Origin: Buchnera aphidicola (Rhopalosiphum padi)
GTDB lineage: Bacteria; Pseudomonadota; Gammaproteobacteria; Enterobacterales; Enterobacteriaceae
NCBI RefSeq assembly: GCF_005080845.1
Contig: NZ_CP034858.1
Coordinates: 310,001 to 374,000 of the forward strand
DNA: 64,000 nt
Direction of reading: 5' to 3'
The position numbers and the translations under genes were made by a program. This document shows positions 30,999-63,573 of the stretch, in pieces (the stretch's first letter is position 1; the number at the start of each line of letters is the position of its first letter). Under the pieces are notes generated by a model. The model did no database searches, was not told where the DNA came from, and saw only the letters and a program-made list of their open reading frames with translations.

Positions 30999-31961
30999 AT
31001 GATTAAAAAAATTGGAGTATTAACTAGCGGTGGAGATGCTCCTGGAATGAATGCTGCAATTAGGGGTGTAGTAAGAACAGCATTAAGTGAAAAATTAGAA
31101 GTATTTGGTATTTATGATGGATATTTAGGTTTATACGAAAACCGTATGATACAACTAGATAGATATAGTGTTTCTGATATGATTAATAGAGGCGGAACAT
31201 TTTTAGGATCTGCTAGATTTCCGGATTTTTATAAAAATGAAATACGTACTATTGCAATGAATAATTTGAATAAAAGAAATATAGATGCCCTTGTTGTAAT
31301 CGGAGGTGACGGATCCTATATAGGAGCTCAAAAATTAACAAAAATGGGTGTTCCATGTATTAGTATTCCAGGAACTATAGATAATGATGTAGCAGGTACT
31401 GATTATACAATAGGTTATTTTACAGCTTTAGAAACAGTTGTAGAAGCAATTGATAGATTAAGAGATACTTCTTCTTCTCATCAAAGAATTTCTATTGTAG
31501 AAGTTATGGGAAGATATTGTGGTGACTTAACATTAGCTGCTGCAATTGCTGGTGGTTGCGAATTTATTGTTCTTCCAGAAATCAATTATACAAAAGAAGA
31601 ATTAGTTTCTGAAATCCAAGCAGGAATCGAAAAAGGTAAAAAACATGCAATAGTAGCGATAACAGAATACATTTGTGATGTAGAAAAATTAGCCAAGTAT
31701 ATTCAGAGAAAAACAAATAGAGAAACAAGAGCTACAATTTTAGGGCATATCCAAAGAGGAGGAGCTCCAGTAGTATACGATCGAATACTTGCTTCAAGAA
31801 TGGGAGCGTATGCAGTAGAATTACTGATAGAAGGTTACAAAGGAAAATGTGTTGGAGTACAAAATGAAAAAATGGTATTTAACGATATAACAGATGCATT
31901 AAAAAATATGAAACGTGTTTTTAAAAAAGATTGGTTAATTACAGCTAAAAAGCTATACTAA
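30999..31961 (+). CDS. pfkA: ATP-dependent 6-phosphofructokinase
   Basis: Commits fructose-6-phosphate to glycolysis. It has 320 residues, the E. coli length. The ATP loop is [13 protein letters not shown] at residues 9-21. The catalytic aspartate is Asp128 in [12 protein letters not shown]. Other signatures are [18 protein letters not shown], and the substrate and effector residues in the ILGHIQRGG region. Nothing is missing. A G+C-rich hairpin follows 11 bases after the stop, and the broken glpF starts at 32047. Confidence 0.97.
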
Positions 31962-31992: not shown

Positions 31993-32046
31993 CTAAAATT
32001 GTTAATTTTATTTTTAAAGAAATAAAATTATAAAGGTATTAAAACA

Positions 32047-32833
32047 ATGAATCTTTTTAAAAAAAAAAATTTTAAAACAGTGTTTTATTGAGTTTTTAGG
32101 AACAGGTTTAATTATATTTTTAGGAATTACTTCTTTTGCCATATCTAAATTAACAAATTTTCATTTTAATAACTATGAAATTAGTTTTTTTTGGGGATTA
32201 GGAGTATTTATATCAGTGTATTTTAGTTTTTCAATATCTGGAGCACATTTAAATCCAGCTATTACTATTTTTCTTTGGTTGTCTTATCGATTTAATCAAA
32301 AAAAAGTAATACCTTATATTATATCTCAAATAGCTGGGGCGTTCTTCTTTACCGTTTTAATGTATCTTATTTGTTATAATTTGTTCAATTCATTTAAGTC
32401 TCAATATAATATTGTCCCGGGGACACAAAAAAGTCTTGAATTAGCTTCAGTTTTTTGTGCTTTTCCTAAAGAAAATTGCAATTTAATTCATGATTTTACA
32501 TTAGAAATGTCTGTTGGAATGATTTTTATAATTATACTTATGAAAATAAATGAAAAAAATAATTTGTTTCCATCTTGTAGTTTTATAAATCCTTTTTTAA
32601 TAGGAATGTTAATTACAATAATTAACCTATTGTTAGGTTCATATAATAATATTACTTTAAATCCAGCTCGAGATTTAGGTCCTAGAATATTTTTAAGTTT
32701 AATTGGATGGGGTAAATTAGCATTTACAGGTAGTGATAATATGATTTTTCCATATTTTTTAATACCTACAATTGCCCCTATTCTAGGTATAAATCTAGGA
32801 GGATGGATATACACAATTTATATAAAAAAATAA
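32047..32833 (+). pseudogene. glpF: Glycerol facilitator (aquaporin family), frame broken at an 11-A run
   Basis: The ATG at 32047 gives MNLFKKKNFK and then runs into a TGA at 32089. Reading one base less in the A11 run (32059-32069) gives MNLFKKKILKQCFIEFLGTG and joins the long open frame to 32833, a protein of 261 residues (E. coli GlpF 281). That frame carries both pore motifs, GAHLNPAIT and TLNPARD, and six likely membrane spans, with no other damage. The gene is therefore a recent one-base insertion, or is still expressed by polymerase slippage on the A-run. A GTG at 32216 would give a protein without the first span and is unlikely to work. An assembly error in the homopolymer is the main alternative. 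Confidence 0.85.
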
Positions 32834-32841
32834 TTATTTTC

Positions 32842-33606
32842 TTATAAAATATTGTCTGATATTTTTATAATTTTTAAAAACTCTTCATGTTTTAAAGATG
32901 CACTGCCAATTAATAATCCATTAACATCAGGTTGCTTAAGGAAATTTTCTGTATTTAATGAATTAACAGAACCACCATATTGTACAATCAAATTTTCTGC
33001 ACTAACAGAATCATATTTTTTTATATAATTTTTTATAAATTGATGTATTAATTGCACGTTTTTAGGATCTGCTGAAATACCCGTACCAATAGACCAAACA
33101 GGTTCGTATGCAATGACTGTATTTCTAAATGCTTTTTCTCCACAAACATTTAATATAGACTTTAATTGTATTTTTAAACTTTTTTCAGTCTTATTAGATT
33201 TTTTTTCTATTTCAGTTTCACCTATACATAAAATAGGAATTAAGTTTAATTTTTTTACTAAACTAAATTTTTTTGCAATTATTTCGTTATTTTCGTTGTG
33301 GAACAAACGTCTTTCAGAATGACCGAGGATAATATATTTAACACCAACATCTTTCATCATTAAAGCAGAATTTTCACCAGTAAATGCACCTGTCAAATTT
33401 ACATCTACATTTTGTGCACCAAGACAAATATTTGTATTATTTATATCTTTGTATACTCTTTCTAAGAATACAGTAGGGGGTGCAATTACAATAATATTTT
33501 TTTTTGAAAAAGATGAAGATCTTAATTTTAAATAAGTTAAATAGCAAGAAATAGTTTTTATATCACCGTTTAATTTCCAATTAGCTACAATAATGTTTTT
33601 TTTCAT
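32842..33606 (-). CDS. tpiA: Triosephosphate isomerase
   Basis: Interconverts dihydroxyacetone phosphate and glyceraldehyde-3-phosphate. It has 254 residues (E. coli 255). The catalytic residues are present: Lys11 in ANWKLNG, His96 in GHSERR and Glu169 in VIAYEPVWSIGTG; the phosphate loop is in VQYGGSVN. It is convergent with glpF, only 8 bases between the stops, with no terminator visible in between. In E. coli tpiA lies close to pfkA and glpF, so the pfkA-glpF-tpiA grouping is ancestral. Confidence 0.97.
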   Translation of the reverse strand: MKKNIIVANWKLNGDIKTISCYLTYLKLRSSSFSKKNIIVIAPPTVFLERVYKDINNTNICLGAQNVDVNLTGAFTGENSALMMKDVGVKYIILGHSERRLFHNENNEIIAKKFSLVKKLNLIPILCIGETEIEKKSNKTEKSLKIQLKSILNVCGEKAFRNTVIAYEPVWSIGTGISADPKNVQLIHQFIKNYIKKYDSVSAENLIVQYGGSVNSLNTENFLKQPDVNGLLIGSASLKHEEFLKIIKISDNIL

Positions 33607-62904: not shown

Positions 62905-63573
62905 TTATAAAAAAACTATGACTTCACCATTTTCATCAATCATACCAGTTAAAACTTTACCGTTTTTTATTTGTACACGTATCTTCTGTTTTTTCACCCC
63001 GTTACTTAAAGCTTTTCCTAAAAAAACAACTTCAAAATCAATTCCTTTCATCTTTACAGTAACTTGTTGATTGATTTTAACTAACCAATAGGGGCGAGTC
63101 ATAAAAGAGGTAATAGGTTGAAAGGGAAAAATATCACGTAAATTAACTCTATTAATAACATCTTTTTTATTAAGATATGTATTACGAGGCAACGTATCTA
63201 AACGTCCTACCATTTTTTTTAAATCTCTTTCTCTTATTCTTGTACCTCTAGGTATTTTTTTTTTAGCTATAATATATTCTCCTTCTACTTGTAATTCAAC
63301 TTGTAAATATTGATGTTGAGCTCCACAAATTAAAATAACATCAACTATTCCAAAATCGTGATTATTATTTACCAATGAAAAAATAGGTTTTTTACAAAAT
63401 ATTTTTTTTTTTAGTGGAGTATGTATTATTGTTTTTATATTTTTTGTTTTAAGAGTATATTCTTTTTTAAAAAAATCGTTTAATTGATCACTTAAATTAT
63501 ACGCGTTAGCTTTAAAAGACTGAAAAAATAAAAAAAATATAAACAAACAAAAAAATATTTTCATTAGTTTCAT
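62905..63573 (-). CDS. flgA: Flagellar P-ring assembly chaperone FlgA
   Basis: 222 residues (E. coli 219). The signal peptide is KIFFCLFIFFLFFQSF ending KANA near residue 25. The C-terminal SAF domain carries AKKKIPRGTRIRERDL, NKKDVINRV and the closing GKVLTGMIDENGEVIV-type strands typical of FlgA. It helps FlgI form the P ring in the periplasm. It is followed by flgN after 58 bases, with no flgM in between. It is divergent from flgB across 278 bases. A ten-T run at 63255-63264 stays in frame. Confidence 0.9.
   Translation of the reverse strand: MKLMKIFFCLFIFFLFFQSFKANAYNLSDQLNDFFKKEYTLKTKNIKTIIHTPLKKKIFCKKPIFSLVNNNHDFGIVDVILICGAQHQYLQVELQVEGEYIIAKKKIPRGTRIRERDLKKMVGRLDTLPRNTYLNKKDVINRVNLRDIFPFQPITSFMTRPYWLVKINQQVTVKMKGIDFEVVFLGKALSNGVKKQKIRVQIKNGKVLTGMIDENGEVIVFL

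Follow-up and report, generated by a model that had tools for sequence, protein, structure and literature searches.

An out-of-frame glpF gene at a poly(A) tract of Buchnera aphidicola from Rhopalosiphum padi and its possible partial correction in expression

Introduction

Can a gene that is out of frame by one base at a poly(A) tract still provide its protein? This question is raised by glpF, a channel gene of Buchnera aphidicola from Rhopalosiphum padi. The gene lies in the window, by which we mean the whole analysed stretch of 64,000 nucleotides (positions 310001-374000 of a 643,941-base contig; the genome has 653,824 bases in three contigs). An earlier note on this DNA read glpF as frameshifted at an A11 run and proposed that it is either expressed from a mixed mRNA pool, through slippage of RNA polymerase, or newly dead.

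The precedent cited there, slippage rescue in Buchnera and Blochmannia, is real (PMC5009743, PMC3017870). According to the accessible text of PMC5009743, corrected transcripts amount to 12-50% in frameshifted Buchnera cell-wall genes and a Blochmannia histidine gene. The available part of PMC3017870 describes frameshifts that species share and that have not decayed, and it cites full-length transcripts at about 30%. Slippage at A10 in Buchnera mur genes is mentioned in the excerpt of PMC6260861, in which deletions predominate when E. coli RNA polymerase transcribes an A11 tract in vitro. In the E. coli reporters of the same excerpt, the poly(A) runs studied were all short and showed no deletion slippage.

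Structure of the glpF break

The locus contains the following features.

32047..32833, plus strand: glpF, MIP-family glycerol/water channel gene whose frame is lost close to the 5' end (sequence, Pfam, TIGR00861)
32033..32036, plus strand: AAGG ribosome-binding-like motif ahead of the glpF ATG (sequence)
32047..32091, plus strand: ATG frame, 14 codons and then TGA (sequence)
32059..32069, plus strand: A11 homopolymer, site of the frame change (sequence; genome scan for A-runs of at least 11)
32051..32833, plus strand: open downstream frame with the channel domain (52-80% identity to the 32 other glpF copies of the genus that were matched in one piece)
32252..32260, plus strand: first NPA motif (sequence read in the open frame)
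32660..32668, plus strand: second NPA motif (sequence read in the open frame)

The claimed loss of frame was confirmed. The frame from the ATG at 32047 runs through A11 at 32059-32069 and ends at the TGA at 32089-32091 after 14 sense codons. From 32051 onward, the other frame has no interruption before its stop at 32831-32833 and encodes 260 residues, and the 261 codons claimed for the restored gene agree with the measured lengths. An intact aquaporin without another lesion had also been claimed, and this description held; the downstream frame contains 0 stops. It matched the Pfam MIP profile PF00230 at 4.2e-42, above the cut-off, and the TIGR00861 MIP profile at 3.8e-50 (170.7 bits, just under the cut-off of 171.25). 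Membership of the MIP family is indicated by the profile match across the entire fold and by the two NPA motifs, which are invariant across 14 aligned Buchnera glpF copies. The A11 run is the longest homopolymer of the gene and its sole lesion. glpF thus has the form expected of a slippage-type gene, namely one frameshift in a long homopolymer with the remainder intact.

The gene is flanked by an ORF at 30999-31961 and a convergent ORF at 32842-33606, which we take to be pfkA and tpiA, respectively. A promoter of its own was not supported for glpF, as the 1-kb region held 6 promoter-like sites against 7.7 in shuffles.

glpF across the genus

Thirty-six genomes of the genus (0.6-0.7 Mb), including that of the window (G000), were compared. 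glpF was present in 35, always between pfkA and tpiA. It was lost in G018, where a spacer of about 0.46 kb is left between the two neighbours (locus L117, about 1037-1500). In the accessible text of PMC3246468, Buchnera glpF is treated in terms of presence and absence only, and the symbionts of Baizongia and Cinara are reported to lack it.

To judge the N-terminal frame, the distance between the ATG and a conserved TGY codon was taken in the 35 copies. The spacing is in frame in 31 of them, at 36 nt except for 33 nt in G022 (G013 was counted from its second ATG). The remaining four are out of frame at the same N-terminal A-run. The comparison with relatives that the earlier note had suggested added three species with an out-of-frame A10-A11 at this tract, G034 (A11, 35 nt), G035 and G027 (both A10, 35 nt), to G000 (A11, 34 nt). 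A tree built from PfkA and TpiA, the proteins of the two flanking genes, forces four separate N-terminal changes and thereby rules out a single ancestral frameshift. Two further copies, N-terminally in frame, break mid-gene at A10 (G031) and T10 (G028). In total, six of the 35 copies are out of frame, each by one homopolymer lesion at a run of at least 10, and no second lesion was found in any of the six.

The breaks are tied to run length. Counted from 38 bases before to 770 after the TGY anchor, a span that overruns the stop in some genomes, 6/39 runs of at least 10 are broken, compared with 0/95 runs of 8-9 (Fisher p = 0.0005). Among the runs of at least 10, the N-terminal tract is broken in 4/7 and the rest of glpF in 2/32 when A and T runs are pooled (p = 0.0055); for A-runs alone the figures are 4/7 and 1/5 (p = 0.29).

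An excess of N-terminal breaks is what bypass of the start site predicts. It therefore bears on a translational correction, in which ribosomes slide on AAA codons or a near-cognate AUU in the downstream frame starts or restarts translation. The break is only four codons in, and AUU codons stand in the right frame at 32069-32071 and at 32087-32089, the latter overlapping the UGA. However, the excess is not significant for A-runs alone, and a new start could not serve the mid-gene breaks. In addition, all four N-terminally out-of-frame species retain the ATG with an AGG motif ahead of it, and AUU starts are rare and weak. We consider a translational correction very unlikely. Translational bypass and a weak AUU start share with slippage the prediction of a working channel.

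In the close relatives G001, G008, and G023, glpF is in frame, with 36 nt from ATG to anchor against 34 nt in G000. Among these, the out-of-frame state is thus private to G000, as would be expected if most cells were in frame and A11 were a miscall, a minority allele, or a recently drifted one. Homopolymers of such length are easily miscalled and mutated. However, part of the stretch ahead of the A-run is also missing from the G000 segment compared with these three relatives. The spacing of 34 instead of 36 nt together with this lost stretch indicates more than one change, which argues against an assembly error or a DNA length polymorphism.

Selection on glpF

If glpF died recently in its own lineage, the A11 indel would be too young for further lesions to have gathered. 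Such a death is conceivable, as the absences described above mark the gene as dispensable in the genus. The selection on glpF was estimated with a codon model, run in our own script and not in a published program. For 33 of the 35 copies (249 codons; G031 and G028 were left out), the overall omega was 0.094. On the G000 branch it was 0.179, with an approximate 95% range of 0.09-0.38 from the likelihood profile, and omega = 1 was rejected (lnL -12230.5 vs -12238.3). Against a background of about 0.09, this branch is marginally looser (2 delta lnL 3.6, p about 0.057). The flanking pfkA and tpiA show no rise on the same branch (0.064 vs 0.066). Therefore, the slight rise, if real, is specific to glpF, and a raised omega with flat flanks is the pattern that early decay of glpF would give. 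The value for G000 is only the third highest among the 33 terminal branches, and the two higher ones belong to in-frame species, which speaks against reading it as a sign of death. The other N-terminally out-of-frame species (G034, G035, and G027 together) gave 0.103 vs 0.093, and a clear relaxation was not found there. The downstream dN/dS, which the earlier note had named as a check, thus proved purifying (omega 0.18) but marginally above the background on its own branch.

The absence of stops gives a time limit. If the whole G000 branch were neutral, 18 nonsense changes would be expected, and 0 were seen. Had neutrality covered more than about 17% of the terminal branch, at least one stop would be expected with 95% probability. 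Any neutral period therefore probably took up less than about 17% of the branch, and a long-dead glpF is ruled out. Neither further lesions nor a neutral rate, the marks of a pseudogene, were found, and a death within about the last sixth of the branch is compatible with these results. Moreover, six copies with a single lesion each, and none with several, would require six recent deaths. We regard recent death as rather unlikely. The downstream frame is under purifying selection, and most of the branch may predate the break. The selection tests themselves fit a recently broken gene and a broken but working gene alike.

Other poly(A) runs in the window and the genome

glpF had been described as the only broken gene, with the longest coding A-run. 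Within the window the first statement stood for homopolymers of at least 10 beside open frames of at least 50 codons, but it failed genome-wide, as shown below. The second is a tie, since the window holds another coding A11.

63402..63412, minus strand: coding A11, in frame in a 222-residue ORF at 62905-63573 (open frame)

The G000 genome has 27 distinct A-runs of at least 11, by our own count from 35 matches. On the basis of open frames, eighteen were classed as coding, of which 13 are in frame and 5 are not; relatives were consulted for the out-of-frame ones only, so that the 13 in-frame runs are classed by open frames alone. The five genes, named by NCBIfam, are glpF, glmM, miaA, orn, and apparently ftsW. 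As 13/18 exceeds the one third expected (p = 0.0015), the out-of-frame state is the exception. Chance in a homopolymer-rich background is ruled out as a full account by the same count. Any frame correction must also be imperfect, because most of the classed coding runs are in frame. The 13 in-frame runs of the same assembly speak against an assembly error as well, and gross homopolymer error is made unlikely by breaks of glmM and miaA that are common to other assemblies. Altogether, a miscalled or polymorphic A11 in glpF appears rather improbable.

In the genome G001, two further genes look out of frame at A-runs. One is ung (A12, 200671), whose run in G000 is in frame with A11, and the other (A13, 318766) is a presumably bioD-like gene, named by a motif.

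Older breaks in glmM, miaA, orn, and ftsW

Of the 29 species readable for glmM, 13 have this gene out of frame at its poly(A) run (C1:424582-424592 in G000). These 29 come from 33 matching genomes; anchors were missing in G027, a locus was lacking for three matches, and glmM went unmatched in three genomes. The out-of-frame species form two supported clades, one of four (G000, G008, G001, and G023) and one of nine around G017, with three spacings (113, 115, and 116 nt) and runs from A9 to A11. On the 24 out-of-frame branches (summed dS 7.4), the omega of glmM was 0.089 against 0.087 elsewhere, and neutrality on them was worse by 588 lnL units. The omega of pfkA and tpiA in these clades was 0.052 vs 0.076 elsewhere. 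As the flanking omega is lower there while that of glmM is not, glmM is somewhat looser by this yardstick. It is nevertheless very far from neutral.

All four members of the clade of the window have miaA out of frame, at runs of A10-A12 (C1:605622-605633 in G000), and the gene is in frame in the two other species read (6 loci in all). The out-of-frame states of glmM (13 species) and miaA (four species) have outlived speciation. Breaks that are common to several assemblies can hardly be private assembly errors.

For orn, an A13-A15 tract near the 3' end was read in three species, at three of six loci; it is in frame in G033 and out of frame in G000 and G017.

C1:613420-613433: poly(A) tract of orn in G000

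The orn matches are split in G025 and G007. Neither miaA nor orn was matched in G029, though both were found in the other 35 genomes; a masked stretch is perhaps the reason. For ftsW, an anchor was obtained at 6 of 30 loci. Judged from the ATG next to the run, the gene looks out of frame in three species (G000, G008, and G001) but in frame in G023. G014 and G029 likewise have no in-frame ATG at this run. Therefore, the ftsW starts are uncertain and the claim that this gene is out of frame is weak. In G005 (C1:229038-230155), the ftsW match falls into two parts and contains stops. Three of these genes, glmM, ftsW, and orn, are essential in E. coli.

Possible correction of glpF by transcriptional slippage

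With about even confidence, we hold that the glpF frameshift is real and would be partly corrected in expression, most likely by slippage of RNA polymerase, giving less GlpF. The A11 frameshift would be real and fairly young. RNA polymerase would slip on the 11-A template and produce glpF transcripts of varied run length. Transcripts with a frame-restoring run would give full-length GlpF from the normal ATG, and the remaining ones a 14-residue peptide, so that the cell would make reduced amounts of the intact channel. We infer that frame correction occurs, that it is transcriptional, and that it lowers the channel level. A rescued glpF is favoured by the single lesion, the purifying selection, the recurrence at the same tract, and the older, constrained poly(A) breaks in the genome. 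Between the two options offered at the outset, the comparison thus favours rescue, and the lack of stops probably limits any death of the gene to very recent times. Against rescue, constraint on the own branch is slightly relaxed for glpF but not for the flanking genes, and in the accessible text of PMC5574713, Traverse and Ochman did not see a frame-restoring transcription indel in Buchnera.

The direction of slippage matters as well. Restoring the frame takes a net change of minus one or plus two bases in the glpF of G000, and of plus one base in those of G034, G035, and G027. In Buchnera transcriptomes, insertions prevail in A/T runs (PMC5574713, available part). Therefore, slippage is less favourable for G000 than for the other three species.

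It is also conceivable, but in our opinion quite unlikely, that the A-run in the N-terminal lysine codons is a recurrently reached and tolerated slippage leader, which would set a low and noisy channel output. Once the run has at least ten A's, its length would drift free of frame, in line with the 4/7 such runs out of frame in four lineages. If this is true, a genome with few regulators would tune membrane permeability by homopolymer length.

Comparison with known systems

The kind of break found in glpF is already known, and glpF is one of several such genes in a lineage that keeps out-of-frame poly(A) genes through speciation. In the slippage-rescued Buchnera cell-wall and Blochmannia his genes of Tamas et al. 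2008 (PNAS), as described in PMC5009743 and PMC3017870, a poly(A) frameshift lies in an otherwise intact gene, as in glpF, and the Buchnera examples are from the same genus. In contrast, glpF encodes a membrane channel, has its tract four codons after the start, and is known at the DNA level. Its state is also private to one species, though four lineages reached it separately. In Blochmannia vafer, eight genes with frameshifts at homopolymers (PMC3017870, available part) are likewise intact but for a poly(A) or poly(T) indel, and rate acceleration was not found in the four genes tested in that part. The genus and genes are different here, and one gene is compared across 35 species. A third case is the 5' poly(A) tract of Listeria inlA (PMC2831843, in excerpt, where the 5' bias of homopolymers is treated as well). 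Like the glpF tract, it lies near the start, leaves a very short peptide, and arose more than once. However, the inlA case was interpreted as a reversible inactivation at the DNA level in a free-living bacterium, whereas glpF belongs to a clonal mutualist.

What is new is that glpF has broken separately in four lineages at a single N-terminal tract, a recurrence that was not found in print in the open-licence literature. Genes counted as broken in symbiont annotation may be working genes. Some pipelines drop such genes; for instance, frameshifted coding sequences were removed according to the accessible text of PMC9116674. A testable set is provided by glpF, in which the same tract was struck independently in four lineages, together with glmM and miaA, and their comparison opens the question of how much of a protein a cell needs. 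A useful internal control for slippage is offered by the T10 run in glpF of the relatives, about 260 bases past the TGY anchor. Among the 25 copies having T10, only that of G028 is broken there, and the other 24 are in frame.
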